Source of the DNA: Streptomyces sp. TRM68416
GTDB taxonomy: Bacteria > Actinomycetota > Actinomycetes > Streptomycetales > Streptomycetaceae
Direction of reading: 5' to 3'
Length of the DNA stretch: 64,000 nucleotides
NCBI RefSeq assembly: GCF_014596915.1
Contig: NZ_JACVWU010000018.1
Location: 62,001-126,000, forward strand
A program made the translations under genes and the position numbers. Within the stretch, counting starts at the first letter, position 1; each line of letters opens with the position of its first letter. Below, piece after piece: positions 12,345 through 25,862 of this stretch. Below the pieces are notes generated by a model. That model saw only the letters and a program-made list of their open reading frames with translations, was not told where the DNA came from and did no database searches.

Positions 12345-12959
12345 CTAGTCGGCGGTCGGTGTGGGCGGCGCGGGACGGAGGGAAGGGTCTTCGCCGATGC
12401 GCCGGCGCAGGTAGGGCAGCATGCCGCGGGTCAGCAGGGCCTGCTGCCACTCCAGCCGTGCCTGTTCCAGTCGGGCGGGGTGCGTGGATCGGCCGCGCCC
12501 GCGTATCGCGGTGGTCAGCAGTGCGCCGAAGGCGGTGAGCGCGCTCGCCGCGGCGACGAGGGTCAGGATCCAGCCGGCGGTGATGAGCGATCCGGGCAGT
12601 GTCCCTTGAACGCCGGCCAGTTGGAGGACGTAACCGAGCACGAGCAGGACCGTGGCCGATGAGCCGGCCACGAGCGGTGTGAGTACGGCCACCGCCGGCA
12701 ACACGTTGCCCTCGGCGGGGTGACCCTGTGTGTGCTCCCGGGCGGATGCGGCCAGGGCGAGGTACTGGCGGTACTCGTCCTGTGCGGCGACGTTGATCTC
12801 GTCGGCGTCCGCGAGCACCCGGATACGGAGGTGTACGGGGGCCCGGCCGGTCGGGTCGGCGCGCATGGCGCTTCGGATGTCCGGGGTGTTCAGTGCCAGA
12901 TGCAGAACGGCCTCGAAGTCCGCCCGGTCCTCGGGGCGGACGCGGAGCGGGTCGGACAC
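12345..12959 (-). CDS. two-span membrane protein of unknown function
   Basis: About 204 residues. The N-terminal 90 are hydrophilic (P-E-D-R-A-D-F-E-A-V-L-H-L-A-L). Two strong membrane segments follow, near residues 100-125 (V-A-G-S-S-A-T-V-L-L-V-L-G-Y-V-L) and 135-165 (L-I-T-A-G-W-I-L-T-L-V-A-A-A). A basic Arg-rich C-terminus ends in P-Y-L-R-R-R-I-G-E-D. GTG 12959 follows CAGGAG. I do not recognise a family. It lies 100 bp downstream of terD on the same strand, so co-transcription with terD is possible. Confidence 0.65.
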   Translation of the reverse strand: MSDPLRVRPEDRADFEAVLHLALNTPDIRSAMRADPTGRAPVHLRIRVLADADEINVAAQDEYRQYLALAASAREHTQGHPAEGNVLPAVAVLTPLVAGSSATVLLVLGYVLQLAGVQGTLPGSLITAGWILTLVAAASALTAFGALLTTAIRGRGRSTHPARLEQARLEWQQALLTRGMLPYLRRRIGEDPSLRPAPPTPTAD

Positions 12960-13059: not shown

Positions 13060-13635
13060 TCAGACGTTGACCCCGAAGTCGGAGGCGATCCCGGACAGCC
13101 CGGACGCGTAACCCTGGCCCACCGCGCGGAACTTCCACTCCGCCCCGTGCCGGTACAGCTCACCGAAGACCATCGCTGTCTCGGTCGAGGCGTCCTCGGA
13201 CAGGTCGTAGCGGGCGAGTTCGGCACCGCCTGCCTGGTTCACGATCCGGATGAAGGCGTTGCGGACCTGGCCGAAGCTCTGGCCGCGGTTCTCGGCGTCA
13301 TGGATGGAGACCGGGAACACGATCTTGTCGACCTCGGCGGGCACCGCGGCGAGGTTCACCTTGATGCTCTCGTCGTCGCCCTCGCCCTCACCGGTGAGGT
13401 TGTCGCCGGTGTGCTCCACCGAACCGTCGGGGCTGGTCAGGTTGTTGTAGAAGACGAAGTGCCGGTCCGACAGCACCTTGCCGGAGGAGTCCAGCAGGAG
13501 GGCGGAGGCGTCGAGGTCGTAGTCGGTGCCGGTGGTCGTGCGGACGTCCCAGCCCAGGCCGACCAGGACGGCGGTCAGGCCCGGCGCCTCCTTGCTGAGC
13601 GAGACGTTGCCGCCCTTGGACAGGGAAACTCCCAC
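13060..13635 (-). CDS. terD: TerD-family stress protein
   Basis: A 191-residue protein of full TerD length. It starts [15 protein letters not shown], with the calcium-site acidic segments [12 protein letters not shown] and [10 protein letters not shown]. Other blocks are F-Y-N-N-L, N-A-F-I-R-I-V and [16 protein letters not shown]. TerD proteins are calcium-binding stress proteins linked to tellurite resistance and, in Streptomyces, to differentiation. GTG 13635 follows AAGGAG. A CTACA-N4-TGTAG dyad lies 54-67 bp upstream, the first of six in the island. Confidence 0.95.
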
Positions 13636-13688: not shown

Positions 13689-13702
13689 CTACAGGACTGT
13701 AG
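13689..13702 (-). promoter_or_regulatory. BlaI-type box 1, upstream of terD
   Basis: CTACA-GGAC-TGTAG, a perfect 5-bp dyad with a 4-bp centre, flanked by AAA and AGA. It is placed 54-67 bp before the terD start. The dyad carries the TACA/TGTA half-sites typical of BlaI/MecI operators. Confidence 0.7.
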
Positions 13703-13773
13703 AGACCGGGGGAGGGGGGTGCAGGAGTCGGATCACGTGTAGCTGAGAGCTTGCGGCCTCCCGAAACCGCCGA

Positions 13774-14040
13774 TCAGTCGCGGGAGTTGCCGAAGAGGAT
13801 GCGATAGCCGATCAGCAGAACCAGTGCGCCCGCGATGGCGGAGCCCCAGGTCGCCGCGTCGAAGAACTCCCGCTCCACCGGCCGGTCCAGGAACGTCGCC
13901 GACAGCCAACCGCCCAGGAACGCACCCGCGATGCCGATGAGCGTCGTACCTGTGAGCCCGCCGGGATCGCGCCCGGGCAGGACGGCCTTGGCGATCGCCC
14001 CGGCGAGCAGCCCCAGTACCAGCCATGCGATGACACCCAT
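13774..14040 (-). CDS. GlsB/YeaQ/YmgE-type small membrane protein
   Basis: An 88-residue protein with three hydrophobic helices: the first from M-G-V-I-A-W-L-V-L-G-L-L-A-G-A-I-A-K, then a conserved P-G-R-D-P-G-G turn, G-I-A-G-A-F-L-G-G-W-L, and a last span near G-S-A-I-A-G-A-L-V-L-L-I-G. This is the transglycosylase-associated-protein family, usually stress-induced. ATG 14040 follows AGGAG at 10 bp and is better than the upstream in-frame ATG. It is divergent from blaI and shares a promoter region containing a BlaI-type box. A paralogue lies at 27004-27267. Confidence 0.85.
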   Translation of the reverse strand: MGVIAWLVLGLLAGAIAKAVLPGRDPGGLTGTTLIGIAGAFLGGWLSATFLDRPVEREFFDAATWGSAIAGALVLLIGYRILFGNSRD

Positions 14041-14108
14041 GTCTCTTGCGCTCCTCATTTCTTCGCGGTGTGTCCGCCAGGGACGCGTGTGCCGCGGAAG
14101 CCTACCTT

Positions 14109-14122
14109 CTACAATTCTGTAG
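14109..14122. promoter_or_regulatory. BlaI-type box 2, between the GlsB-type gene and blaI
   Basis: CTACA-ATTC-TGTAG, a perfect dyad in the 178-bp divergent region, 69 bp from the GlsB-type start and 97 bp from the blaI start. The position would allow autoregulation of blaI together with the divergent gene. Confidence 0.75.
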
Positions 14123-14218
14123 ACGCAGTGACGGTGGGCTGAGGAACATGGGGACGGCTGTCAGTTCCCCTACGATGAACCGCTCGCGAACTCAGAGCCA
14201 TGGGAAGGGAGACAGGGC

Positions 14219-14608
14219 GTGACGGAACACCGGCAGGGTTCCCGGCGACGGGGGCAGGGAGAGCTGGAGGCGCTCGTCCTGTCGGCGCTGCGGGAGGCGG
14301 ACGGGCCGGCGACGGCGGGCTGGGTGCAGGAGCGGCTCGGCGGAAATCTCGCCTATACGACGGTGATCACGATCCTGACCCGCCTGCTGGCCAAGGGGGC
14401 CGTGACGCGGGAGCGGGGAGGCCGGTCCTTCGCATGGACGCCGGCCTCCGACCAGGCCGGTCTGGCCGCGCACAAGATGCGCAAGGTGCTGGACGCCGAG
14501 AGCGACCGGGGGGCGGTGCTGGCCAGCTTTGTCACCGGCCTTGGCCCGGACGACGAACGGCTGCTGCGTGAACTGCTGCGTCAGCCCAGGAGTGAAGGGG
14601 AAGACTGA
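14219..14608 (+). CDS. blaI: BlaI/MecI/CopY-family transcriptional repressor
   Basis: A 129-residue winged-helix repressor. The N-terminal domain reads R-R-G-Q-G-E-L-E-A-L-V-L-S-A-L-R, then A-G-W-V-Q-E-R-L, and the recognition region A-Y-T-T-V-I-T-I-L-T-R-L-L-A-K-G. A wing R-S-F-A-W-T-P and a C-terminal dimer helix follow (L-A-S-F-V-T-G-L-G-P-D-D-E-R-L-L-R-E-L-L). BlaI proteins bind TACA-N-TGTA dyads and leave DNA when an M56 sensor peptidase is activated. GTG 14219 follows AAGGGAG. The M56 gene starts 6 bp after its stop. I propose it binds the six CTACA-type boxes in this island. Confidence 0.9.
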   Translation: MTEHRQGSRRRGQGELEALVLSALREADGPATAGWVQERLGGNLAYTTVITILTRLLAKGAVTRERGGRSFAWTPASDQAGLAAHKMRKVLDAESDRGAVLASFVTGLGPDDERLLRELLRQPRSEGED

Positions 14609-14614
14609 AGCCTC

Positions 14615-15547
14615 ATGGGGGTGTTCGTCTTTCTGCCGCTGGTCCTGCCGTTGAGCGCCTGGCCCATCGCCCGGCTGGCCGAACAGCGGCTGCATCCGCG
14701 GACCGCGACCCGACTGCTGACCGGGGTGGCCGCTGTCATGGCGGTGTGCAGCACGGTGTGCCTGGGGTTGGTGATGGTGGTCGGCACTGCCCAGCTGCCC
14801 GGCAACCCGTTGCCCGACGGCTGGTCGGACCCCGAGGTGCGCGAGGCGGTGCCGTACGACGAGGTGGCCGGCAAGGCGGCCATCCCGGCGCTCTGCCTGG
14901 TGCTGGTGGCCTGTGGCCGGACGCTGTGGCGGCACGGCCGGGTGCGTCGCCGTGCCCACCGGGCGCTGGCCGGGCTGCCCGACACGGAGGTGGCGGTCCT
15001 GCCCGACGAGGTTCCGTATGCGTACGCGCTGCCCGGGCGTCGGCGGAACCGGGTCGTGGTGACCACCGCCCTGCTGGACTGCCTCGAAGTGTCCGAGCGA
15101 CGCGCCCTGTTCGCTCATGAGCGGGCCCATCTCGCCGCCCGGCACCACCGCTACCTGCTCGCCGTGCAACTGGCCGCGCGCGCCAACCCGTTCCTGCGCC
15201 CGCTGCGCACGACGGTGTCCTTCGTGGCCGAGCGGTGGGCGGACGAGGAGGCGGCCGAAGTGATCGGCAGCCGCCGGACGGTGGCGTGCGCGATCGGCAA
15301 GGCGGCGCTCGTGTCCAGGGGCACCCCTGTGGTGACGCTGGCGGGTCTCGCGGCACCGGGGCCGGTGCCCCGCCGGGTGGCGGCCCTGCTCGGCCCGGCG
15401 CCCGCGGTGCGCAGTTGGCCGTCGGTGTTCACCTCGGTGGGGCTGGCGGTGTGGGGTGCGGCCGTGGGGACGGCGGTGTCCGCGATGTCGTCGGCGAACT
15501 CGGCGGTGACGATGGTCCTCATCCTGCACGCGGCGACGCCCCTCTGA
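14615..15547 (+). CDS. M56-family membrane metallopeptidase (BlaR1-like, no sensor domain)
   Basis: A 310-residue membrane protein. Membrane spans lie near residues 1-20, 35-58, 90-107 and 270-300. The zinc site is HERAH in A-L-F-A-H-E-R-A-H-L-A-A-R, with a likely third ligand in V-A-E-R-W-A-D-E-E-A. It resembles the M56/M48 peptidase half of BlaR1/MecR1 but lacks the extracellular penicillin-binding sensor. It is coupled to blaI (6 bp gap). By analogy it would respond to an envelope signal and trigger loss of BlaI. The signal is unknown. Confidence 0.85.
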   Translation: MGVFVFLPLVLPLSAWPIARLAEQRLHPRTATRLLTGVAAVMAVCSTVCLGLVMVVGTAQLPGNPLPDGWSDPEVREAVPYDEVAGKAAIPALCLVLVACGRTLWRHGRVRRRAHRALAGLPDTEVAVLPDEVPYAYALPGRRRNRVVVTTALLDCLEVSERRALFAHERAHLAARHHRYLLAVQLAARANPFLRPLRTTVSFVAERWADEEAAEVIGSRRTVACAIGKAALVSRGTPVVTLAGLAAPGPVPRRVAALLGPAPAVRSWPSVFTSVGLAVWGAAVGTAVSAMSSANSAVTMVLILHAATPL

Positions 15548-15623
15548 GTTCGGGGCCCGGCCGGTCGGTGCAGCCCGCGGGGCGGCGAGGCCGGTGCGAG
15601 CCTGCGCACCCCCGCTCGTATAT

Positions 15624-15637
15624 CTACATGCATGTAG
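15624..15637 (+). promoter_or_regulatory. BlaI-type box 3, upstream of the LCP gene
   Basis: CTACA-TGCA-TGTAG, a perfect dyad lying 86-99 bp before the LCP start and just after the stop of the M56 gene. It is preceded by TATAT, so the box probably overlaps or follows the promoter. Confidence 0.75.
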
Positions 15638-15722
15638 AGTTCCGCCATTCGGTGAGTGCGGATTCGAGCGCTCGTGTGCGGCCGGCCGGTCGGGGGCGGC
15701 CCAAGGGGAGGGGTGCGCGCCG

Positions 15723-17108
15723 GTGAGCGGTACGCGGAGACGGCGACCGGCTCCGGCCGGCGACCGGTCAGCCAGGCTGACGCGGCGGGGGCGGGTGCTG
15801 ACGTGGACGGCCGGGGCGTTCGCCGTGGTCATTCTGGGCGTCGCAGGGGTCGGCGCCTGGGTGTACCAGGACCTGGACGGCAACATCCAGGGCGCCGACG
15901 TGGACAACAAGCTCGGCGGGAACCGGCCCGAGAACCTCAGCCCGGGCTCGAAGAACATCCTGGTCGTCGGCTCCGACAGCCGGGACGGTGACAACGCCGA
16001 GTACGGCAAGGGTCTGACCACCATGCAGTCGGACACCCTGATGGTGATGCACATACCGGCGAACCGGGAGTGGGCGACGGTGGTGTCCCTCCCGCGCGAC
16101 TCATGGGTGGAGATACCCGAGTGCGACAAGGGTGACGGTACTGCCTCCGATCCGCACCACTTCAAGATCAACGAGGCGTTCGCGATCGGCGGCACCAGTG
16201 GCGAGGTCGCCGGGGCCGCCGCCTGCACCATCAAGACGGTCGAGGCGAACACGGGCCTGCGCATCGACCACTTCATGTCCGTCGACTTCCAGGGCTTCAA
16301 GGGCATGGTCAACGCCCTGGACGGCATCGAGGTCTGCCCCGAAGAGGCCATACACGACGAGAAGGCCCACCTGGACCTGGAGGCCGGCTGCCAGACCGTC
16401 AGGGACGAGGAGGCGCTCGGCTACGTACGCGCCCGCTACAGCATCGGCGACGGCTCCGACACCGGGCGCATCGGCCGCCAGCAGGAGTTCATGGACGCTC
16501 TCGCCAAGAAGGCGCAGTCCAAGCTGACCAGCCCGAACGCGCTGTACGGCTTCCTGCGGTCCGCCACCAAGTCCCTGACCACGGACTCCGATCTGGCAGG
16601 CATCAAGCCGCTGTACGGCCTCGCCTCCGAGATCCAGGGCATACCCGGTGAGCGGCTCACGTTCCTCACCGTTCCCAACTACCCGCGTGAGGCCGATGTG
16701 GCCACCGACAAGGCCAACATCGTGTGGCAGTATCCGCAGGCCGCCGACCTGTTCACTTCCCTGGCCCAGGACAAGGAGGTCGACAAGAAGCGACTGGAGG
16801 CCGGCGCGAAGGATCCCGTGTACGCCTCCTCCGTGCGCGTCCAGGTCCTCAACGGCACCGGCGTCTCCGGGCGGGCCGCGGCCGTGGCCGAGAAGCTGCG
16901 CGAGGCCGGCCTCACCGTCGTCGGCACGGGGAACGCTCCTGAGAACACCCGTACGACCGCGGTCACTTACCCACAGGGCCTGGACAGGCAGGCCGAGGTG
17001 CTCGCGGCGCGGCTGCCCGACGCGAGGGCAGGGCAGGATCAGGGAGCCGCCGCGGGCGTGGTGACCCTCGTCGTCGGAACCGATCTCGACCCCGACGACA
17101 TCCGGTGA
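15723..17108 (+). CDS. LytR-CpsA-Psr (LCP) cell-wall ligase
   Basis: A 461-residue protein anchored by one N-terminal span (F-A-V-V-I-L-G-V-A-G-V-G-A-W-V-Y). The LCP domain (about residues 65-280) shows V-V-G-S-D-S-R-D, Q-S-D-T-L-M-V-M, the L-P-R-D-S block and A-R-Y-S-I-G-D-G-S-D-T-G-R-I-G-R-Q-Q. A C-terminal LytR_C domain follows (V-R-V-Q-V-L-N-G-T-G-V-S-G). LCP enzymes transfer lipid-linked polymers such as teichoic acids or arabinogalactan-like glycans to peptidoglycan. GTG 15723 follows AGGGGAGG; the longer open frame upstream is not used. A BlaI-type box lies upstream. Confidence 0.9.
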   Translation: MSGTRRRRPAPAGDRSARLTRRGRVLTWTAGAFAVVILGVAGVGAWVYQDLDGNIQGADVDNKLGGNRPENLSPGSKNILVVGSDSRDGDNAEYGKGLTTMQSDTLMVMHIPANREWATVVSLPRDSWVEIPECDKGDGTASDPHHFKINEAFAIGGTSGEVAGAAACTIKTVEANTGLRIDHFMSVDFQGFKGMVNALDGIEVCPEEAIHDEKAHLDLEAGCQTVRDEEALGYVRARYSIGDGSDTGRIGRQQEFMDALAKKAQSKLTSPNALYGFLRSATKSLTTDSDLAGIKPLYGLASEIQGIPGERLTFLTVPNYPREADVATDKANIVWQYPQAADLFTSLAQDKEVDKKRLEAGAKDPVYASSVRVQVLNGTGVSGRAAAVAEKLREAGLTVVGTGNAPENTRTTAVTYPQGLDRQAEVLAARLPDARAGQDQGAAAGVVTLVVGTDLDPDDIR

Positions 17109-17138
17109 CGTGGGCGCTGTCTCCCGGGTGACGACGGC

Positions 17139-17173
17139 GTGCCGGGCCGACGCCTTCGGCGCCCGCCCGGCAC
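17139..17173. terminator. shared terminator between the LCP and terB genes
   Basis: GTGCCGGGC (17139-17147) pairs with GCCCGGCAC (17165-17173) around an imperfect inner stem with a TTCG loop. The genes on both sides converge here, so it can serve both. Confidence 0.65.
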
Positions 17174-17191
17174 GAGCGCCGTGTGGCGATA

Positions 17192-17647
17192 TCAGAGATC
17201 GAACTCGTGCGGCGGCAGGTCGAGGGTGAAGCACGCCTCGCGGACGATGGCCTGCTCGGTCTGGTCGAAGTCGCCGTCCGCACCGCCGATCACGATGCCG
17301 ATCTGGATGACGGCACGCGCCTCGGCGGGCTTCTTCTTCGCCTTGGCGATCTCCTGCAGGACGCTGACCTTGCCGAAGTCGAAGTCGGCGGTCAGCTTGT
17401 CGAGGTTCTCGTCGAAGCGGCGCTGGAGGTCGGTCGCGTCGAAGTTCTGCAGCACCTCGTTGGTGGCGATCAGCTGAGCCACGCGGCGTCGCTCCGACGG
17501 ATCGATGGTGCCGTCGGCCGCGGCGACCAGCGCGCACATCGCCATGCTGGCGTCACGGAAGGCGCCGCTCTTGAGGTCGTTCTTCTTCGCCACGAGCTGC
17601 GTCTGCATCTGCGTGGCGGAATCCTTGATGCGGTCCCACAGGGCCAT
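17192..17647 (-). CDS. terB: TerB-family tellurite/stress protein
   Basis: A 151-residue all-helical protein of TerB type. It reads M-A-L-W-D-R-I-K-D-S-A-T-Q-M-Q, then A-M-C-A-L-V-A-A-A-D-G-T-I-D-P-S-E-R-R-R-V and V-I-G-G-A-D-G-D-F-D-Q-T-E-Q. The repeated A-D-G-x-I/F-D motifs are the acidic metal-binding corners of TerB. ATG 17647 follows GGAG. A near-perfect CTACA/CGTAG box lies 24-37 bp upstream, close enough to block transcription if bound. Confidence 0.93.
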   Translation of the reverse strand: MALWDRIKDSATQMQTQLVAKKNDLKSGAFRDASMAMCALVAAADGTIDPSERRRVAQLIATNEVLQNFDATDLQRRFDENLDKLTADFDFGKVSVLQEIAKAKKKPAEARAVIQIGIVIGGADGDFDQTEQAIVREACFTLDLPPHEFDL

Positions 17648-17670
17648 GAGAGCTCCATCCTCAATAAGAT

Positions 17671-17684
17671 CTACAGCAACGTAG
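17671..17684 (-). promoter_or_regulatory. BlaI-type box 4, upstream of terB
   Basis: CTACA-GCAA-CGTAG, one mismatch from the perfect dyad, flanked by GAT and AAA. It lies 24-37 bp before the terB start. Confidence 0.65.
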
Positions 17685-17880
17685 AAACTATCGGCCCGAC
17701 CGGTAAGTTCCGGCGATTTCCCAAAGGCCACACCTGATGTCGGGGCGAGAGCCGTCGATGAGGTTCTCGTCGGCGACGGAAAGGGACCGCAGGTCGGCCG
17801 ACTGGGCGGGCCGGGAGGGCACCGATCACCTTCCGCTCACCGTCAGCGGCTGATCCATCTCCCGGACCCGCCCCCGTGTC

Positions 17881-18870
17881 TCAGCCCTCTTCTTCCTCGT
17901 CGCCCTCGAAGAAGTCACCGACCTCGTCGACCACTTCGGCCGCGACCATGCCGCCGACGACACCGACCGCGAGCCCGGCCGCGCCCGCGGCGACGACGGT
18001 GCCCATGCCGGGGCCGGAGCGGTGGCCCTCGTGGTGGTGATCGTCGTGGCCGTAGTGCCCGTGGTGGCCGTCGTGCCCGTACGAGGAGTGGGAGCCGTAC
18101 GACGCCCGGTGCTCGACCAGCTGCCGGATCCAGCCGTCGACCTCGGTGTTCCAGTCCCGGGAGTCGTGCAGTCCGACGGTGAACCGGGTGAGCGCGTCGT
18201 GCCCTTCGGAGAAGAAGCCGCCGCGCTTGTCGGCCTCCAGGACGACCTCCATGCCGCCGGGGCCGGCCAGGAAGGTCAACTCGATCTCGTTGACCTGGTG
18301 GGCGTACTGCGGGGCCGGGGCGAGTTCGATCTCCTGGTAGAAGGGCAGCTGCTGGCCGGTACCGCCGATGCGCCCGTACTCCAGGTCGGCGGACTTGAAG
18401 CCGAAGCCGAGCTGGCCCAGGGCCTCCAGGATCGCCTCCTGGACGGGCAGCGGGGCCACCGCGAGCTGGTCCAGGTCGCCCTTGTCCTTCGCGCCGGCCA
18501 CCGCCAGTTCGGTCCGTACGCCGAGGACGATGCCCAGGCCCTGGCCGTACAGCTCGGTGATGGGCGTCTCCCAGGGCAGCATCAGAGTGAAGGGGACGCT
18601 GTGCGGCTCGCCCGCCGCGAGACGGAAGCCGCCACCGACGGTGAACCGCTCGAAGGCGACGACGCCCTCGCTCTCCCCGCCGTCGTGCTCGGCCTCGACC
18701 CGCGCCACCAGCTCCAGCGTGATGTGCTCGATGTCGAAGTCGGCGTCCCCGCCCTTGAGGTGGACCTGGCCGGTCAGTGCGCCGCCGGGCCGGGCCGCGC
18801 CCGGGTCGAGGACCGTGTCGACCGTGGGGCCGCCCACACCGAGCGAGCCGAGCAGTCGTTTGAACACCAT
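17881..18870 (-). CDS. Spo0M-family sporulation protein with a His-rich tail
   Basis: A 329-residue protein. Residues 1-250 form an arrestin-like Spo0M domain: M-V-F-K-R-L-L-G-S-L-G-V-G, V-D-T-V-L-D, G-G-A-L-T-G-Q-V-H-L-K-G-G and D-I-E-H-I-T-L-E-L-V. Residues about 254-286 are strikingly His-rich (G-H-D-G-H-H-G-H-Y-G-H-D-D-H-H-H). A small hydrophobic Gly/Ala/Val segment and an acidic end follow. In Bacillus, Spo0M affects the start of sporulation and cell shape. ATG 18870 follows AAGGAG. The His run suggests metal binding, which would fit the Ter neighbours. Confidence 0.88.
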   Translation of the reverse strand: MVFKRLLGSLGVGGPTVDTVLDPGAARPGGALTGQVHLKGGDADFDIEHITLELVARVEAEHDGGESEGVVAFERFTVGGGFRLAAGEPHSVPFTLMLPWETPITELYGQGLGIVLGVRTELAVAGAKDKGDLDQLAVAPLPVQEAILEALGQLGFGFKSADLEYGRIGGTGQQLPFYQEIELAPAPQYAHQVNEIELTFLAGPGGMEVVLEADKRGGFFSEGHDALTRFTVGLHDSRDWNTEVDGWIRQLVEHRASYGSHSSYGHDGHHGHYGHDDHHHEGHRSGPGMGTVVAAGAAGLAVGVVGGMVAAEVVDEVGDFFEGDEEEEG

Positions 18871-18965
18871 CGTGGCGTCCACTCCTTCTACGTGCGTGTG
18901 TTTCGTGAGAGAGCGGTGCCGCACACCGGGGCGGGCGCACGGCACCACGGCTTTGCGCGAGCGGG

Positions 18966-19184
18966 CTACTTGGTCGTGTCCAACGCGGCGAGGGCCTGCG
19001 CCCAGCGGACGTACTTCAACTCGGCCAGGTCGGCTATGGTCTTGACCCCGAACGCCTCCAGAAGCAGCTCGCCGTCACGGTCGGAGACCCCCTTGAGCGC
19101 GCCCACCGGGGCGGCCAGGATCTCGGGCAGGCTCTTGTCCGCCCACGCCTTGTCGAGCACCTTGTCCAGGTCGATCGAAGCCAT
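18966..19184 (-). CDS. small helix-hairpin-helix-like protein
   Basis: A 72-residue protein, M-A-S-I-D-L-D-K-V-L-D-K-A-W-A-D-K-S-L. Its middle V-G-A-L-K-G-V-S-D-R-D-G-E-L-L-L-E-A-F-G resembles the P-x-x-L-x-G-V-S-x-x-x-A helix-hairpin-helix pattern, although DNA binding is unproven. Related small proteins occur widely in Streptomyces without a known role. ATG 19184 follows GAGAGGA. It precedes spo0M by 95 bp on the same strand and may share its promoter, which carries box 5. Confidence 0.75.
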   Translation of the reverse strand: MASIDLDKVLDKAWADKSLPEILAAPVGALKGVSDRDGELLLEAFGVKTIADLAELKYVRWAQALAALDTTK

Positions 19185-19534
19185 GCGTGTCCTCTCCCGG
19201 ATACGTGCGAGGCGCTGCCCCGTCACGGTCTTTCTACAAGTACGTAGAAGCATAAGGCTGTTGAGGGCCGGGAGGGGCGTGGTCCGTGCGGGCACGCCAA
19301 GAAAGGCCAAAAACGGCTTCTTGCGCTGCCGTGTCGAAGGGTTGGGCCGGGACGCCGGCGCGTGCCGGTGTTTCGGCGGGCAAGCACGCAAGGCGCTCGC
19401 TCGTGGACTGCTCCGGCACGGCGTGAGAGGGGCCCGGATGGCCCTGCCAGTGGTCGCTCCGTCCCCTCGCAGTGGTGTGAGGTCGGCGTGATGCTGGATG
19501 CAAGAGGTCTGGTATCCGGGTTCCGGGAGGCAGG
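19185..19534. other. divergent 350-bp region between the HHH-like and USP genes
   Basis: Contains BlaI-type box 5 and presumably promoters in both directions. No gene is supported; the open frames here are read-through shadows. Confidence 0.5.
19234..19247 (-). promoter_or_regulatory. BlaI-type box 5, upstream of the HHH-like gene and spo0M
   Basis: CTACA-AGTA-CGTAG, one mismatch from perfect, flanked by TTT and AAG. It lies 50-63 bp before the small gene at 19184. A weaker half-match (CTACG-TGCG-TGTGT, 18888-18901) lies directly upstream of spo0M but overlaps its ribosome site. Confidence 0.65.
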
Positions 19535-20407
19535 GTGGCCGGTCGGGTGGTCGTAGGAGTGGACGGGTCGGCGTCGGGTCTGGCGGCGGTGGAGGTGGCC
19601 GCGCGGGAGGCGCGGCTGCGCGAGGCGGAGCTGCGGGTGGTGCATGCCTTCCTGTGGCCCGCGATGCATCCGCCCCCGGCCTCCTCGCCGCTGGGCCCGC
19701 CGGAGGGCGGTGTCCGGAGCATGGTCGAGCGGCTGCTGGCCGAGGCGGCCGAGCGCGCCAGGAGCGTGGCCCCGGAGGTGGAGGTGTCGTGCGCTGTGGT
19801 GACGGGTGAGCCGCTGACGGTGCTGGAGGCCCAGTCGCATGCTGCCGAGCTGGTGGTGGTCGGGTCCCGGGGGATGGGCGGGTTCGTCGGACTGCTGGCG
19901 GGCTCGACGGCGGTGCATCTGGCGGCGCACGGCCGGTGCCCGGTGCTCGTGGTGCGGGAGGAGCCACGTGCGGATGGGCCGGTCGTGGTGGGCGTCGACG
20001 GCTCCGTGGCGGGAGAGCAGGCGGTGGACTTCGCCTTCGCCGAGGCCGCTCTGCACGCGACCGACCTGGTGGCCCTGCACGCCTGGACCATCCGGAACGC
20101 GCCGATGCCCACCGTGCGGTACGTGGACGGGGCGGCCGGTCTCGCGGGGGCGGAGGAACGCCTCCTGTCCGAGGCACTCGCCGGCCATCGGGAGCAGTAC
20201 CCGGACGTGTCCGTACGGCACGAGGTGGTGCACGGCGGGACGCGCGAGGCGTTGATCGAGGCGAGCCGCTCGGCCCGGCTGATGGTGGTCGGCGCCCGGG
20301 GGCGCGGCGGTTTCGCCGGGCTGCTCCTGGGGTCGGTCAGCCAGGCCCTGCTGCATCACGCGCACTGCCCGGTCGCGGTGGTGCGGGGGACGAACGAGCG
20401 TCACTGA
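19535..20407 (+). CDS. universal stress protein, two UspA domains
   Basis: A 290-residue tandem UspA. Domain 1 starts V-V-V-G-V-D-G-S-A-S-G and domain 2 (about residue 150) V-V-V-G-V-D-G-S-V-A-G. Both keep the ATP-binding motif G-x2-G-x9-G-S: G-S-R-G-M-G-G-F-V-G-L-L-A-G-S-T and G-A-R-G-R-G-G-F-A-G-L-L-L-G-S-V. Such proteins bind ATP and help survival under stress or hypoxia. GTG 19535 follows GGGAGG. It is followed after 358 bp by the CNNM gene cluster. Confidence 0.93.
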   Translation: MAGRVVVGVDGSASGLAAVEVAAREARLREAELRVVHAFLWPAMHPPPASSPLGPPEGGVRSMVERLLAEAAERARSVAPEVEVSCAVVTGEPLTVLEAQSHAAELVVVGSRGMGGFVGLLAGSTAVHLAAHGRCPVLVVREEPRADGPVVVGVDGSVAGEQAVDFAFAEAALHATDLVALHAWTIRNAPMPTVRYVDGAAGLAGAEERLLSEALAGHREQYPDVSVRHEVVHGGTREALIEASRSARLMVVGARGRGGFAGLLLGSVSQALLHHAHCPVAVVRGTNERH

Positions 20408-20765
20408 CGCGCGGCGGACGCCGGTCCCGGTCCCGGGGCGGGCAAGCCGCGGGGCGGGTGCGGGAAACGGGTGAGGACGGGACAGCAGACGGCCTGGAGC
20501 ACGGCGACGACACGGCCGCGATTCCGTCGGTCGCGCTGATCCGTGCCTACCGGGCGCTCACGCAGATGTCGGGGGACCAGGTGACATGTTTTGCGCCTCC
20601 TTTACAGTTGGTGTAGAGGCAGGGCATCCTGCTTCGCCCCACTGTCTTCGTGCACGTCTCGTGCGTTTCGAGAAGGAGCGACGGTCCCCCGATGGGTGAG
20701 CCTCCCAGTACCAGCCGCGCCACGTCCCGCCGGCACTGTGCGACCGAGCGAGCGGGGGTGTCGCG
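20408..20765. other. 358-bp region upstream of the CNNM cluster
   Basis: No gene is supported. It holds the degenerate BlaI-type box 6 and must contain the promoter of the 20766 gene. Confidence 0.5.
20602..20616 (+). promoter_or_regulatory. BlaI-type box 6 (degenerate), upstream of the CNNM cluster
   Basis: TTACA-GTTGG-TGTAG. The halves match the other boxes except for one base, but the centre is 5 bp instead of 4. It lies 150 bp before the first CNNM start. Confidence 0.45.
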
Positions 20766-22100
20766 GTGACCGAGATCCTGCTGCTCCTGCTGGCCCTTCT
20801 CCTCACGCTGGCCTGCGCGTTGTTCGTCGCGGCCGAGTTCTCGCTGACCACCGTCGAGCGCGGGGAGCTGGAGCGAGCCACCGAGGCCGGCGAGCGCGGC
20901 GCGGACGGCGCGCTGAAGGCCGTACGGTCGCTGACGCTCCAGTTGTCCGGGGCCCAGCTGGGCATCACCGTCACCTCACTGGTCATCGGCATGCTTGCCG
21001 AGCCCTCCCTCGCGGCGCTCCTGAAGGGACCGCTGGAGGCGATCGGGCTCGGTGGCGCTGCCTCCGCGGTGGCGACCGTGCTGGGCGTGGCCGTCTCCAC
21101 CGTCGTGCTGATGGTGGTGGGTGAGCTGGTGCCGAAGAACTGGGCGATCTCCCGGCCGCTGGCCGTCGCGAAGGTGGTGGCCGGACCGCAGCGCGGCTTC
21201 ACGGCCGCCTTCGGACCCTTCATTCGGCACCTCAACAACACCGCGAACCGTTTCGTACGGCGCTTCGGTCTGGAGCCCACCGAGGAGCTGGCCTCCGCCC
21301 GCTCGGCGGAGGAGCTGGTGGCGCTGGCCCGGCACTCGGCGGCGGAGGGGGCCCTGGAGGCGGACTCCGCCGAGCTGTTCGTGCGCACCCTGCACCTGGG
21401 CGAGCTGACCGCCGAGAACGTGATGACCCCGCGGGTCGACGTCCAGGCCCTCGAAGCACACGCGACGGCGGCTGACGCGGCCAACCTCACCCACGCCACC
21501 GGTCTGTCCCGCTTCCCGGTCTACCGAGACAGCCTGGACGAGGTGATCGGCACCGTCCACATCCGCGACGTTCTCGCCCTGGATCCCGAGAAGCGCCTGC
21601 TCACGCCTGTCACCGACCTGGCCACCGAGCCCCTGCTGGTCCCCGACAGCCTGACGGCCGACCGGCTGCTGGAGCGCCTGCGCGCCACCCGCACCATGGC
21701 CGTCGTCATCGACGAGTACGGCGGTACGGCCGGCGTGGCGACGATGGAGGACATCGTCGAGGAGGTCGTCGGCGAGGTCCGCGACGAGCACGATCCCCTC
21801 GAAAAGCCCGATCTGCTGCCCGCCCCGCGCACCGAGGACGGGCGCGCGGTGTGGGAGGCGGACGGCGGGGTCCGCCTCGACGAGCTGGCCCGGATAGGAC
21901 TGACCGCTCCGGAGGGCCCGTACGAGACGGTCGCCGGCCTCATCGCCACCCGTCTCGCCCGCATCCCGGCCCACGGCGACACCGTTCTCCTCGACGGCTG
22001 GCGGCTGGACGTCGTCGACGTGGACCACCACCGCGCCGATCGCGTACGTATCACCGAACCCGCGTCCGTCCTGCGGGAGCTGGCGGAGGAGTCCCGATGA
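20766..22100 (+). CDS. CNNM/HlyC/CorC-type transporter, long form 1
   Basis: A 444-residue protein usually annotated as a hemolysin-family protein. Residues about 1-185 are the CNNM (DUF21) membrane domain, with A-E-F-S-L-T-T-V-E-R, L-S-G-A-Q-L-G-I-T-V-T-S-L and G-E-L-V-P-K-N. A CBS pair follows (N-V-M-T-P-R-V-D; V-I-D-E-Y-G-G-T-A-G-V-A-T-M-E-D). The end (about 345-430) is a CorC_HlyC domain (Y-E-T-V-A-G-L-I-A-T-R-L). Related proteins export or regulate divalent cations such as magnesium or cobalt. GTG 20766. Its stop overlaps the next start (ATGA). Confidence 0.92.
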   Translation: MTEILLLLLALLLTLACALFVAAEFSLTTVERGELERATEAGERGADGALKAVRSLTLQLSGAQLGITVTSLVIGMLAEPSLAALLKGPLEAIGLGGAASAVATVLGVAVSTVVLMVVGELVPKNWAISRPLAVAKVVAGPQRGFTAAFGPFIRHLNNTANRFVRRFGLEPTEELASARSAEELVALARHSAAEGALEADSAELFVRTLHLGELTAENVMTPRVDVQALEAHATAADAANLTHATGLSRFPVYRDSLDEVIGTVHIRDVLALDPEKRLLTPVTDLATEPLLVPDSLTADRLLERLRATRTMAVVIDEYGGTAGVATMEDIVEEVVGEVRDEHDPLEKPDLLPAPRTEDGRAVWEADGGVRLDELARIGLTAPEGPYETVAGLIATRLARIPAHGDTVLLDGWRLDVVDVDHHRADRVRITEPASVLRELAEESR

Positions 22101-23119
22101 CCGTCCTGCAGCTCGCCATCGGCGCTCTCACCCTGTTGACCAACGCGTTCTTCGTCGGCGCCGAGTTCGCTCTGATCTCGGTGCGCCGCAGCCAGATCGA
22201 ACCCCGCGCCCGGGAGGGCAACACCCGGGCCCGCATGACGCTGTGGGGACTTCAGCACCTGTCCGCGATGATGGCCACCGCCCAACTCGGCATCACCGTC
22301 TCCTCGCTGGTCCTCGGCGCGGTTGCCGAGCCCGCCATCGCGCATCTGCTGGAGCCCGGCTTCGAGGCGGCCCACATCCCGCACGGCCTCGTACATCCGA
22401 TCGCGTTCGTGATCGCGCTGACGCTCGCCACGTATCTGCACATGCTGATCGGCGAGATGGTGCCGAAGAACATCGCCCTCGCGGCACCCGTGCCCACCGC
22501 GCTGCTGCTGGGCCCGCCGCTGGTGGCGCTCACCCGGGCGCTCAGGCCGGTGGTGTTCGGCATCAACGCCTTCGCCAACACCCTGCTGAAGCTGCTGCGC
22601 GTCGAGCCGAAGGACGAGGTCGAGGCCGTCTTCACCGACGACCAGCTGGCCCGCATGGTCGTCGACTCCAGCGAGGCCGGGCTGCTGTCCGCGGCCGACG
22701 GGGAGCGGCTGCGGGACGCGCTGGAGCTGGGGACGCGTCCGGTGGGCGAGATCCTGGTCCCGGCGCAGAAGATGCGGACGGTCGACGCCTCGGTCACTCC
22801 GGCCCGGCTGGAGCGGGTCGCCGCCGAGGCGGGCTACTCCCGTTTCCCGGTCACCGGTCCGGAGGGCGCCCTCCTCGGGTACCTGCACATCAAGGACACC
22901 CTCGGCGTCGCCGACCGCGACCGTCCCTTCCCGGGTGAGGCGCTGCACCCGGTCACCCGGGTCCGCATCGACACCCCGCTGGACGACACCCTCACCGCGC
23001 TGCGTGCCGAGGGCAGCCATCTGGCCGCCGTGCTCGGCGAGGGCGGCAAGGTGATCGGGTTCGTGACGATGGACGACGTCCTGTCCGAGCTGGTCGGCCC
23101 AGCTCCGGCCGACGCGTGA
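22097..23119 (+). CDS. CNNM-type transporter, short form 1
   Basis: A 340-residue partner with the same CNNM membrane domain (V-G-A-E-F-A-L-I-S-V-R-R, A-T-A-Q-L-G-I-T-V-S-S-L, G-E-M-V-P-K-N-I-A) and a CBS pair (P-A-Q-K-M-R-T-V-D; V-I-G-F-V-T-M-D-D-V). It stops right after the CBS pair and lacks the CorC_HlyC domain. ATG 22097 overlaps the upstream stop by 4 bp, so the two are translationally coupled and may form a heterodimer. Confidence 0.9.
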   Translation: MTVLQLAIGALTLLTNAFFVGAEFALISVRRSQIEPRAREGNTRARMTLWGLQHLSAMMATAQLGITVSSLVLGAVAEPAIAHLLEPGFEAAHIPHGLVHPIAFVIALTLATYLHMLIGEMVPKNIALAAPVPTALLLGPPLVALTRALRPVVFGINAFANTLLKLLRVEPKDEVEAVFTDDQLARMVVDSSEAGLLSAADGERLRDALELGTRPVGEILVPAQKMRTVDASVTPARLERVAAEAGYSRFPVTGPEGALLGYLHIKDTLGVADRDRPFPGEALHPVTRVRIDTPLDDTLTALRAEGSHLAAVLGEGGKVIGFVTMDDVLSELVGPAPADA

Positions 23120-23508: not shown

Positions 23509-24846
23509 GTGAGTGCCGTGGAAGCCTGGCTCGGCCTGCTGGCCGTCCTCGTCCTGACGGCCGGCACCGGCTACTTCGTCGCCCAGGAATTCGCCTACGT
23601 CTCCGCCGACCGGCTCGCCCTCGCGCGTGAGGCCGAAGCCGGGGACCGGAAGGCCGCTCGCGCCCTGAAGGTGCTGGAGCGGCTGTCGTTCATGCTGTCC
23701 GGCGCCCAGCTCGGCATCACCGTGACCGGTCTGGTCGTCGGCTTCATCGCCGAGCCGTCCGTGTCCGCGCTGCTCGAACCCGCGCTGTCCGGCCTGGGCA
23801 TCCCCGACGCCGCCGTCAGCACCATCTCCGTCGTGCTCGCCTTCGTCGGCGCGACCGTCGTCCAGATGGTGCTGGGCGAGCTGGCCCCGAAGAACCTCGC
23901 CATCGCCGTGCCCGAGCGGCTGGCCAAGACCCTGGCCGGATCCACCCTCGCGTACCTGAAGGTCGTCGGCCCCGTCGTGCACGTCTTCGACGCCACGGCG
24001 AACAGGCTGCTGCGCAAGGTGGGCATCGAGCCCGTCGAGGAACTGCACCACGGAGCCACGCTGGAGGAGCTCGGTCACCTCATCGGCGAGTCCCACGAGC
24101 AGGGCCAGCTGCCCAGGGACACCGCCGAACTGCTCGACCACGCCCTGGAGTTCTCCGACCGGACGCTGGACGAGGTGATGGTGCCGCGCGTGGACGCCGT
24201 CTTCGTCCGCAAGGACGCCACCGCCGCGGAGGCGATCGACCTCATCGGCAGGCACGGCCACTCCAACTACCCGGTCCTCGGCGACCACCCCGACGACATG
24301 ACCGGCGTCCTCGGGGTCCGGGAGCTGATGCGGCTGCCCGCCGACCGGATGACCGTGACGACCGCGGGCGCGCTGGCCCGGCGCCCGCTGCTGCTGCCGG
24401 ACACCCTGCCGCTGCCGGACGCGGTCGAGCAGATGCGTTCGTCCGGCGACGAGTTCGCCGTGGTCCTGGACGAGCACGGGGGCGTGGCCGGAATCGTCAC
24501 CTACGAGGACATCGCCGAGGAACTGGTCGGCGACATCGCCGACGAGTCCGACACCGTGACCGAGGTCGCGGTCCCGGACGGGCAGGGCTGGCTGGTGGAC
24601 GCCGGCCGTCGCCTGGACGAAGTGGCCGAAGCCACCGGCATCGAGCTGCCCGAGGAGGAGGACTACGACACCGTGGCGGGCCTGATCGTCGACCGGCTCG
24701 GCCGCTTCCCGACCGTCGGGGACCGGCTCACGGTCACGTTGTCCGACGGCGCCGACGTGGCGATCGACGTCCGGACCCTTGACCGGCATGTGCCGGAGCG
24801 CGTCCGCCTGGAGCGGCTGGTCGACATGGCGGAGGAGCAGGCATGA
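23509..24846 (+). CDS. CNNM/HlyC/CorC-type transporter, long form 2
   Basis: A 445-residue protein of the same three-domain layout as the 20766 gene: CNNM region with A-Q-E-F-A-Y-V-S-A-D-R and L-S-G-A-Q-L-G-I-T-V-T-G-L, CBS pair (E-V-M-V-P-R-V-D; V-V-L-D-E-H-G-G-V-A-G-I-V-T-Y-E-D) and CorC_HlyC end (Y-D-T-V-A-G-L-I-V-D-R-L). GTG 23509 is preferred on spacing; an upstream GTG at 23491 is in frame. It overlaps the next gene by ATGA, repeating the long-short arrangement of the first pair. Confidence 0.9.
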   Translation: MSAVEAWLGLLAVLVLTAGTGYFVAQEFAYVSADRLALAREAEAGDRKAARALKVLERLSFMLSGAQLGITVTGLVVGFIAEPSVSALLEPALSGLGIPDAAVSTISVVLAFVGATVVQMVLGELAPKNLAIAVPERLAKTLAGSTLAYLKVVGPVVHVFDATANRLLRKVGIEPVEELHHGATLEELGHLIGESHEQGQLPRDTAELLDHALEFSDRTLDEVMVPRVDAVFVRKDATAAEAIDLIGRHGHSNYPVLGDHPDDMTGVLGVRELMRLPADRMTVTTAGALARRPLLLPDTLPLPDAVEQMRSSGDEFAVVLDEHGGVAGIVTYEDIAEELVGDIADESDTVTEVAVPDGQGWLVDAGRRLDEVAEATGIELPEEEDYDTVAGLIVDRLGRFPTVGDRLTVTLSDGADVAIDVRTLDRHVPERVRLERLVDMAEEQA

Positions 24847-25862
24847 GTTTCCCGATGGCACTCTTCGTCACCGTCCTGCTGCTGATCGGCAGTGGCTTCT
24901 TCGTCGCCGCCGAGTTCGCGCTGGTCGCCGCCAAGCGGCACCGCATGGAGAAGGCCGCGGCCGAAGGCCGGCGCGGCGCCGGGGCCGCACTGGCCGGCAT
25001 GCGCGAGCTGTCGCTGATGCTGGCCGGCGCCCAGCTCGGCATCACCGTGTGCACGCTGGGCCTGGGCTCGGTGTCCAAGCCCGCGATCTCCCACGAACTC
25101 GATCCTCTGCTGCACAGGCTGGGGCTGCCCAGCGCGCTCAGCTACGGCATCGCGTTCGCCGTCGCCATGATCGTGGTCGTGTTCCTGCACATGGTGGTCG
25201 GCGAGATGGCCCCCAAGTCGTGGGCCATCGCCCACCCCGAGCGCTCCGCCATGCTGCTCTCCCCGCCCTTCCGGGGCGTGGTGAAGCTGGTACGTCCGCT
25301 GATCTGGGTCCTCAACAAGGTGAGCAACGGCCTGGTACGGCTGTGCCGGGTCACCCCGCGCGACGAGCTGGCCTCGGTCCACAACCGTGAGCAACTCACG
25401 CACCTGGTCGAGGAGTCCGAGCGGCTCGGCCTGATCAGCAAGGACGACTCCGAGCTGATCACCAACTCGCTCACCGCGCCCCAGACGCCGGTGGGAGAGC
25501 TGCAGATCCCGGCCGCCGAGATCACCTCGATCCAGTCCGAGGCCGACCTCGACACCATCCTCGCCACCACGGCCGAGCACGACCGAAGCCGCCTCCTGGT
25601 CCGCGACGGGCCGCTGGTCGTCGGCTCCCTCCACGTGCGCGACGCGCTGATCGCCCGCGGTCGCGGGCGCGCCGTCACCGCACGGGAACTAGCCCGCCCG
25701 GTACCGGAGCTGGCCATGAACGACACCGTGAGCCACGCCATCGAGCAACTGCGTCGGCGCCGCGCCTCCCTCGCCGTCGTGCGCGACGCCGGCGGGCAGC
25801 TCACCGGCATGGTCACACTGGACGACCTGCTGGCCCGCCTGCTGCACCGGCAGGAGGCGTAA
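24843..25862 (+). CDS. CNNM-type transporter, short form 2
   Basis: A 339-residue protein with the CNNM membrane domain (V-A-A-E-F-A-L-V-A-A-K-R, L-A-G-A-Q-L-G-I-T-V-C-T-L, G-E-M-A-P-K-S-W) and a CBS pair ending G-M-V-T-L-D-D-L-L-A-R-L. It has no CorC_HlyC domain. It is coupled to the long form 2 gene by a 4-bp ATGA overlap. A strong terminator follows its stop codon. Confidence 0.9.
   Translation: MSFPMALFVTVLLLIGSGFFVAAEFALVAAKRHRMEKAAAEGRRGAGAALAGMRELSLMLAGAQLGITVCTLGLGSVSKPAISHELDPLLHRLGLPSALSYGIAFAVAMIVVVFLHMVVGEMAPKSWAIAHPERSAMLLSPPFRGVVKLVRPLIWVLNKVSNGLVRLCRVTPRDELASVHNREQLTHLVEESERLGLISKDDSELITNSLTAPQTPVGELQIPAAEITSIQSEADLDTILATTAEHDRSRLLVRDGPLVVGSLHVRDALIARGRGRAVTARELARPVPELAMNDTVSHAIEQLRRRRASLAVVRDAGGQLTGMVTLDDLLARLLHRQEA

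Follow-up and report, generated by a model that had tools for sequence, protein, structure and literature searches.

Conserved TCTACA-N4-TGTAGA boxes mark a putative BlaI-peptidase stress regulon in Streptomyces

INTRODUCTION

Among the closest described relatives of the system examined here are the BlaR1–BlaI and MecR1–MecI pairs of Staphylococcus aureus and Bacillus licheniformis. We compared with them a gene cluster from a 64,000-nucleotide stretch of DNA of Streptomyces sp. TRM68416 (hereafter the window; C32:62001–126000 of a genome of 8,858,332 bases), in which a blaI gene and a membrane zinc-peptidase gene lie among genes preceded by a recurring palindromic box. As in the described systems, blaI adjoins the peptidase gene, the repressor has the BlaI/MecI fold, and the peptidase fold is modestly alike. 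The operators of the described systems are built from TACA/TGTA halves, according to the available part of one source (PMC7253601), and the same halves occur in the boxes. Unlike these systems, the Streptomyces cassette lacks a penicillin sensor, separates its half-sites by four bases (N4), and has ter, spo0M, LCP, and CNNM genes as its putative targets. We consider it about 80% probable that the boxes are operators of the BlaI protein encoded at position 14219, and that the neighboring sensor-less peptidase would lift repression in response to an envelope signal.

Two other relatives are informative. BlaI of Mycobacterium tuberculosis (Rv1846c) is likewise actinobacterial, and among solved structures its own (2g9w) is the closest to the window BlaI. 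Its partner peptidase is sensor-less. The M. tuberculosis regulon includes blaC, sigC, and atpH, with no ter or spo0M genes in the accessible part of the report (PMC8265638), and no usable operator sequence appears in the accessible parts of PMC12565901, PMC8265638, and PMC4757040. The CopY/CopR copper repressors, whose operator is RNYKACANNTGTMRNY, belong to the same superfamily and share ACA/TGT half-sites, again according to the available part of PMC7253601. The window system differs from CopY/CopR in having N4 instead of N2 spacing, no Cys-X-Cys pair in 21 aligned BlaI rows, and a peptidase gene as partner.

RESULTS

Palindromic boxes precede genes of the cluster

The initial annotation of the window, made from the letters alone, had reported six CTACA-N4-YGTAG dyads, three perfect, two with one mismatch, and one with a longer centre, and had proposed that they mark a BlaI-controlled regulon. 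All six sites were recovered, the last with a five-base centre:

13689..13702, no strand, box 1: CTACAGGACTGTAG, perfect palindrome, 53 bp upstream of terD
14109..14122, no strand, box 2: CTACAATTCTGTAG, perfect palindrome, between the divergent glsB and blaI genes
15624..15637, no strand, box 3: CTACATGCATGTAG, perfect palindrome, upstream of the LCP gene
17671..17684, no strand, box 4: CTACAGCAACGTAG, one mismatch, upstream of terB
19234..19247, no strand, box 5: CTACAAGTACGTAG, one mismatch, upstream of a 72-amino-acid gene and spo0M
20601..20617, plus strand, site 6: TTTACAGTTGGTGTAGA, five-base centre, conserved element upstream of a CNNM gene

Every site stands upstream of a gene start, at the coordinates first given for it. 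The proposed consensus holds for five boxes, whose exact form is TCTACA-N4-TGTAGA, but not for the sixth site, which is a distinct N5 element (core TTACAGTTGGTGTAG at 20602, with a five-base centre and one change). The imperfect terB box CTACAGCAACGTAG is also found upstream of terB in a second cluster of the same genome (C89) and in loci L046 and L056. Its retention across both clusters and in other species would fit a deliberately weaker operator.

The box is symmetric, nearly fixed in spacing, and far above chance

With at most one mismatch, the window contains 12 strand-matches, compared with a mean of 1.13 (standard deviation 1.22, maximum 5) in 100 dinucleotide shuffles. In the whole genome, CTACAN4YGTAG occurs at 10 places: five in the window cluster, four in the C89 cluster, and one on C39. 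When the 16-mer TCTACA-N4-TGTAGA is searched with at most one mismatch, nine sites are found, all inside the two BlaI clusters (five and four). The C39 match, which lies within a predicted open reading frame and is missing from the 16-mer list, was rejected as a regulon member. At two mismatches or fewer the genome holds 43 matches versus 29 for a reversed control, which indicates that matches at that level are mostly due to chance.

A larger sample was provided by 60 loci of the genus Streptomyces (965 kb). Although several of these were selected after a box was already visible near BlaI (some of G117, G008, G088, G034, and G091 in the first two batches; G109, G053, G120, G101, G091, G008, G014, and G031 in the third), CTACA-N4-TGTAG is present there in 85 copies; the 29 other permuted forms of the half-site average 0.21 copies and never exceed 2. 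The clustering of all nine 16-mer sites and this excess over permuted half-sites both show that the boxes do not occur at random frequency. Among spacers of 0 to 10 bases, N4 accounts for 85 of 91 copies and N3 for six, and all others are zero. The two-base centre of the TACA-N2-TGTA class is therefore not the form used in these loci, since CTACA-N2-TGTAG has no copy.

The symmetrised motif from 90 perfect boxes is T-CTACA-N4-TGTAG-A, with the outer T in 166 of 180 half-sites and little else conserved. None of these 90 boxes falls in a called gene, and 87 have a gene start no more than 400 bp away, as judged from calls by a simple composition script that places start codons and small genes only approximately. 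A wider locus set yields 121 boxes, of which one falls inside a gene and five have no target. The box centres are diverse, with 65 different tetramers among 230 box copies (in which a few loci are counted twice). These features bear on the idea that the boxes act as promoters, perhaps recognised by a sigma factor, or as terminators, instead of repressor sites. The hexamer TTTACA within site 6, which could serve as a −35 element, speaks for it. However, two-fold symmetry, variable centres, weakly conserved flanks, and a nearly fixed N4 spacer suit a dimer site more than a promoter, and we regard a promoter or terminator role as extremely unlikely.

Boxes recur before orthologous genes

Conservation was examined in 80 named loci, all fetched through BlaI and all from Streptomyces or Kitasatospora, and hence not phylogenetically independent. 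Genes were called with the same composition script, and phmmer comparison with proteins of the window or of the loci placed them in families. The loci contain 109 perfect boxes, none within a coding sequence. Promoters were counted as boxed when a box with at most one mismatch lies within 300 bp; counts of perfect boxes are given in parentheses. By this measure a box precedes 59 of 79 BlaI genes (56), 37 of 46 TerD genes (37), 29 of 30 TerB genes (21), and 20 of 29 Spo0M genes (4), as well as all six genes for the 72-amino-acid protein (1; labelled HHH for the helix-hairpin-helix-like character seen in it by the initial annotation) and all four GlsB genes (4). Boxes are also found before TatA-like genes (22/39; 21), LCP (6/11; 5), CNNM1 (7/13; 0), CNNM3 (5/12; 1), acyltransferase (3/11; 3), and the family located downstream of terD (2/13; 2). 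No box precedes the peptidase gene (0/70), CNNM2 (0/12), or CNNM4 (0/14). The background, taken from unlabelled genes, is 7 of 681 (4). Recurrence upstream of orthologues, on which the initial annotation had made its proposal depend, is thus evident.

Four of the 80 loci duplicate earlier ones. Their removal leaves the picture unchanged (BlaI 55/75, TerD 34/42, TerB 26/26, Spo0M 20/26, HHH 3/3, unlabelled genes 6/653). The median distance from box to start codon is 103 bp for BlaI, 66 bp for TerD, and 65 bp for TerB, at which a bound protein could block transcription.

A membrane acyltransferase-3 gene stands divergent to terB behind the box in seven loci (L045, L047, L049, L050, L051, L078, and L080). 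The assignment was checked with Pfam for L050 and made by clustering for the other six.

Box number tracks the presence of BlaI

Among 121 genomes of the genus, a BlaI match is present in 102 at 1e-10 and in 97 at 1e-20. Because the reversed control pattern is itself a GATG..CATC-type dyad, with counts often as high as those of the box, genomes with and without BlaI were compared instead. The looser box pattern has a median of 8 strand-matches in the 97 BlaI genomes (E ≤ 1e-20) and a mean of 1.25 in the 24 others (Mann–Whitney p 2e-11), so that the boxes follow BlaI genome by genome. At least two matches on both strands occur in 77 of the 97 versus 1 of the 24. The 19 genomes without any BlaI match all encode closely related TerD proteins (identity up to 91%), and no box is present at 30 TerD loci from these genomes. 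Some terB, terD, spo0M, and hhh genes distant from BlaI are also boxed. Of 27 loci centred on a box (L104–L130, from genomes among the matches listed), 21 hold a target from the regulon families or from a second BlaI regulon described below.

Chance or base composition is hardly credible as the source of these patterns. The genome-wide search at two mismatches does come near its control, and BlaI-less genomes still contain a few matches of the looser pattern, as the mean of 1.25 shows. Against this stand the 85 copies versus 0.21 for permuted half-sites and the boxes at 59 of 79 blaI promoters versus 7 of 681 unlabelled ones. By comparison across genomes, the regulon is real and conserved: the comparison shows what the boxes are, where they lie, that they are conserved and accompany BlaI, and which genes they precede.

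The perfect 16-mer was also sought more broadly: 18 of 31 genus members contain it, as do 17 of 265 genomes from the rest of the class (reversed control, 5 of 296). In another actinobacterium (L298), tandem TCTAC-N5-GTAGA dyads occupy the region from ∼94 to ∼55 bp upstream of the BlaI match; the half-site seems to be shared there while the spacing varies among lineages.

Genes and proteins of the cluster

The genes concerned are as follows:

12345..12959, minus strand, gene downstream of terD; no match in Pfam or NCBIfam
13060..13635, minus strand, terD; PF02342, 294 bits, above cut-off
13774..14040, minus strand, glsB-like small membrane protein; PF04226
14219..14608, plus strand, blaI, winged-helix repressor; PF03965; nearest fold M. 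tuberculosis BlaI (2g9w), then MecI
14615..15547, plus strand, membrane zinc peptidase of 310 amino acids; HERAH at residues 168–172, Ste24/BlaR1-like
15723..17108, plus strand, LCP ligase; LytR-CpsA-Psr domain and LytR_C domain
17192..17647, minus strand, terB; PF05099, 96 bits, above cut-off
17881..18870, minus strand, spo0M, arrestin-like; PF07070, 264 bits
18966..19184, minus strand, 72-amino-acid protein (HHH); no match in Pfam or NCBIfam
19535..20407, plus strand, universal stress protein; PF00582; separates box 5 from the CNNM genes in this genome
20766..22100, plus strand, CNNM/CBS/CorC_HlyC membrane protein 1
22097..23119, plus strand, CNNM/CBS protein 2, overlapping protein 1
23518..24846, plus strand, CNNM/CBS/CorC_HlyC protein 3
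24843..25862, plus strand, CNNM/CBS protein 4

Over 12.3–25.9 kb, the order is therefore a gene without a Pfam match, terD, glsB, blaI, peptidase, LCP, terB, spo0M, the 72-amino-acid gene, the universal stress protein, and four CNNM-type genes. Homologues of the first gene elsewhere possess their own box (cluster CL4). The LCP start at 15723 was chosen from the sequence (a GTG after a purine-rich stretch); the first in-frame GTG, at 15594, would place box 3 within the gene. No beta-lactamase or penicillin-binding protein is found among the boxed window genes (terD, glsB, lcp, terB, the 72-amino-acid gene and spo0M, CNNM).

The assignment of the 14219 protein to the BlaI/MecI repressors is upheld by both Pfam and fold. 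Penicillinase_R (PF03965) matches with 85.2 bits (cut-off 22.6), and the best Foldseek hits of the model are 2g9w, 1sd6, and 1okr (E 7.5e-6 to 8e-5), with low confidence in the C-terminal third. The half-sites known from this family, TACA/TGTA, are present as CTACA/TGTAG in the 85 copies from the 60 loci, which makes them putative sites of BlaI binding.

The adjacent peptidase had been called an M56 enzyme. Its place beside BlaI in the middle of the cluster and its Ste24/BlaR1-like character stand, but the family label does not, as the Pfam match at E ≤ 0.001 is Peptidase_M48. The model contains long helices and is fairly confident (mean pLDDT, predicted local distance difference test, 80.5). 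Among solved structures it is most like Ste24-type proteases and BlaR1 (Foldseek probability 0.91–1.00, E 0.02–0.3). Residues H168-E169-R170-A171-H172, E206, and D210 are invariant in 18 rows that include both peptidase families; they form the HExxH zinc-peptidase motif and downstream Glu/Asp pair typical of the multi-pass BlaR1/MecR1 sensor-transducers. No penicillin-binding sensor domain is found in the 310 amino acids, where only the peptidase domain matches and the chain stops after the last long helix; the sequence and the model thus agree with the earlier suggestion that a signal is sensed without a beta-lactam domain.

A candidate for the sensor of the ter-type peptidase is the loop formed by residues 56–80, between the second and third long helices. 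In family 1 its majority identity is 0.96 (11 rows), compared with 0.95 for the first helix and 0.84 for the peptidase core, whereas in family 2 the loop reaches only 0.60. It is modelled at low confidence (pLDDT ∼53). By analogy with the topology of BlaR1 the loop would face outward, and for this reason it is proposed as the sensing element.

The protein data bear on another explanation, in which the boxes are BlaI operators but BlaI senses a ligand or metal directly, as CopY does, and the peptidase is accessory. CNNM and ter genes do suggest metals, the NCBIfam CopY_TcrY model gives a weak sub-threshold match (23 bits, cut-off 122), and no peptidase gene was called by the script in 11 of 57 BlaI loci. 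Conversely, a peptidase gene was called in the remaining 46 of the 57 and its catalytic residues are invariant, and inspection of the aligned BlaI rows by eye reveals no Cys-X-Cys pair. Direct sensing by BlaI is therefore improbable.

The same box accompanies a second type of BlaI locus

The C89 cluster (L011:8018–11527) holds paralogous tatA-like, terD, blaI, peptidase, and terB genes with four boxes of its own. A stop codon interrupts its spo0M, of which only a remnant is left. More distant BlaI–peptidase pairs, whose BlaI proteins are ∼46–59% identical to that of the window and which lack ter genes, carry the same box. A fair test of this was made with 20 divergent pairs (51–59%), taken in list order, with already fetched ones skipped, from genomes not previously inspected for boxes. 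Upstream of blaI, 14 of them have a box with at most one mismatch (five perfect), versus the background of 7/681.

The neighbors of these second-type genes are different. A DedA-family protein is encoded by the divergent gene in 7 of the 20 (L310, L312, L313, L316, L317, L322, and L329), a PAP2 phosphatase gene lies beside DedA in six of those seven, and PAP2 itself is divergent in one more. L313 also encodes UppP (PF02673), with a separate perfect box ∼120 bp upstream of the gene. Pfam confirms VTT/DedA, PAP2, BacA/UppP, FTR1, and transglycosylase-transpeptidase among the second-type neighbors; a gene of the last kind lies beside blaI in L125, where it is boxed, and in L321, where no box is found within two mismatches. 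PAP2 and UppP act on undecaprenyl pyrophosphate. For DedA proteins, a role as undecaprenyl-phosphate flippases has been suggested, according to the accessible part of PMC10127716. It is possible that the DedA/PAP2/UppP loci form an undecaprenyl-phosphate recycling regulon under the same box. Together with the ter-type cassette, these neighbors indicate that BlaI–peptidase pairs in Streptomyces accompany envelope genes twice over.

Two further kinds of gene were seen in these surroundings. In L105 and L130, an FTR1/imelysin iron-permease gene lies opposite a DedA gene across the box or boxes, an arrangement that may connect the second regulon with metals. A response-regulator gene lies behind a perfect box at L117:5266–5919 and, with no box, beside a second-type BlaI gene at L319:4654–5307; it is possibly a further regulon member.

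Site 6 is a separate conserved element

Site 6 (TTTACAGTTGGTGTAGA) gives no box match even within two mismatches. The element TTTACAGTNNGTGTAGA is nonetheless retained amid diverged flanks upstream of the CNNM gene in several species, and as a sequence element it is therefore real. Eight of 121 genomes contain a single copy of the pattern CCTTTACAGTNNGTGTAGA; all eight have BlaI, and none is among the 19 BlaI-less genomes. In seven of the eight, the window genome included, it lies directly upstream of the CNNM gene. Site 6 may be a variant operator, a promoter, or both, possibly an operator fused with the −35 element noted above. A known riboswitch was rejected as an explanation, because at Rfam gathering thresholds the window gives only four tRNAs and the small signal recognition particle RNA.

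DISCUSSION

A proposed mechanism and the evidence that weighs on it

The most likely mechanism is one in which a BlaI dimer would occupy TCTACA-N4-TGTAGA just upstream of the starts of terD, glsB/blaI, lcp, terB, and the 72-amino-acid gene/spo0M, with the CNNM operon probably also among the promoters held by BlaI. Bound BlaI would keep the cassette low, its own gene included. A membrane or cell-wall signal would then activate the zinc peptidase (14615–15547), kin to the protease part of BlaR1, and the activated peptidase would inactivate BlaI, so that the whole cassette is induced together. Of these steps we infer BlaI binding, repression instead of activation, cleavage by the peptidase, and the envelope type of the signal. 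Three tellurium-resistance proteins increase in S. viridochromogenes during oxidative stress, according to the accessible part of PMC3912134, which makes an oxidative signal possible as well. The system would resemble BlaR–BlaI in its working but is not a beta-lactam regulon, because neither the sensor domain nor the N2 spacing is found.

A number of observations weigh against this mechanism. The half-site spacing is 2 bp wider than in the published TACANNTGTA of CopY, and the likeness of the peptidase fold to BlaR1 is modest (E 0.03–0.3), with no E under 0.001. Several BlaI genes (e.g., L067, L069, L071–L073, and L078–L080) have no box at two mismatches or fewer in the 400 bp upstream, so autoregulation is not universal. 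Of the 20 second-type BlaI genes, 6 have none at one mismatch or fewer. Among 21 CNNM1 genes, 12 carry an N4 box within 450 bp at one mismatch or fewer, seven have the N5 element (one has both), and three have neither. On the genome scale, 7 of the 97 BlaI-positive genomes show at most one strand-match, the BlaI-less genome G030 has at least two matches on both strands, and the perfect 16-mer is missing from 13 of the 31 genomes of the same genus. Six of the 27 box-centred loci (L106, L112, L114, L117, L120, and L129) lack a target from the regulon families; L114 is in G030. Outside the genus, 28 of the best BlaI loci of 30 genomes have no N4 box, several of them having CTAC/GTAG dyads with other spacings, and only three of the 17 genomes with a perfect 16-mer (G132, G254, and G389) have it directly before the BlaI match. 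Two others of the 17 (G173 and G312) have no BlaI match.

Some of these findings would suit an unlinked regulator, such as a MarR, TetR, or XRE protein, that uses the boxes and has blaI as just another target. The BlaI genes without a box, the spacing unlike the CopY form, and the 14 of 17 outside-genus genomes whose 16-mer is not directly before BlaI all point in that direction. Against it, the number of boxes tracks the presence of BlaI, and blaI has the most perfect boxes of any family in the 80 loci. Moreover, one box is shared by two BlaI subfamilies with different neighbors, which leaves BlaI as the common gene. Three BlaI genes outside the genus also have the 16-mer ∼60 bp upstream: two of the 30 best loci, both in another actinobacterial family (f15), carry it at this distance before the matched start, and a lower-ranked BlaI gene in G132 likewise has it. 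We consider control by an unlinked regulator very unlikely.

Relation to envelope-stress responses

In Bacillus subtilis, yceC–E are TerD-like, bcrC and uppP belong to regulons of the sigmaW/sigmaM type, and in the sigmaW/sigmaM responses an anti-sigma factor is cleaved. By analogy, the Streptomyces system would cleave a repressor instead. B. subtilis spo0M is among the genes most strongly dependent on sigmaW, and the yceC–H operon is listed under sigmaW, sigmaB, and sigmaM, according to the accessible part of PMC3498285; both facts support the envelope-stress theme. The sigmaE cell-envelope regulon of Streptomyces also controls LCP-family genes (PMC6767563, accessible part), from a promoter type unlike the box. 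The terms tellur-, BlaI, MecI, penicillinase, and Spo0M are absent from the text of that report, and tellur-, BlaI, and Spo0M are absent from a transcriptome study of S. coelicolor exposed to envelope antibiotics (PMC3123327).

We tentatively propose a broader scheme, for which the odds are somewhat below even: a proteolytic envelope-stress network of Streptomyces with at least two parallel BlaI–peptidase switches that share the TCTACA-N4-TGTAGA code. Within this scheme, the first switch would control a membrane-protection cassette (TerD, TerB, Spo0M, GlsB, LCP, CNNM, TatA-like, and acyltransferase). The second would control undecaprenyl phosphate recycling (a DedA and PAP2 operon, and UppP), joined at some loci by a penicillin-binding protein. 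Neither switch would use a penicillin sensor, and the first peptidase type would sense through its loop of ∼25 residues. Such a network, if it exists, would be a functional counterpart of the Bacillus sigmaW/sigmaM response, operated by a repressor and not by sigma factors.

The initial annotation knew of no description of this exact regulon, and none of the regulon or its box in Streptomyces was found among the titles and abstract beginnings of the open-licence PMC literature. The component families are known; their combination was not found in print within that scope. To our knowledge, TerD/TerB and Spo0M are widespread and their inducers are mostly unclear. With a defined operator, repressor, and membrane peptidase, the question of their induction would become a reporter assay. 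The boxed undecaprenyl-phosphate recycling genes offer a handle on how antibiotic producers protect their own cell-wall lipid cycle. The data also suggest that BlaI–peptidase pairs may have the older task of watching over the envelope in general, beta-lactam sensing being a specialisation.

Additional BlaI-like genes

A third BlaI gene of the genome lies at C56:414196–414519 (L103). It was rejected as a controller of the boxes, because no peptidase gene is labelled there and the surrounding 16 kb contains no TACA-N(0–6)-TGTA dyad. A further Pfam match, on C13, was not retained as BlaI, since by eye its translation resembles a MarR-type protein. In Streptomyces fungicidicus, a BlaI protein 86% identical to that of the window is encoded on the plasmid NZ_CP023408.1 (926,728 bp), which indicates that the cassette may also occupy large plasmids.

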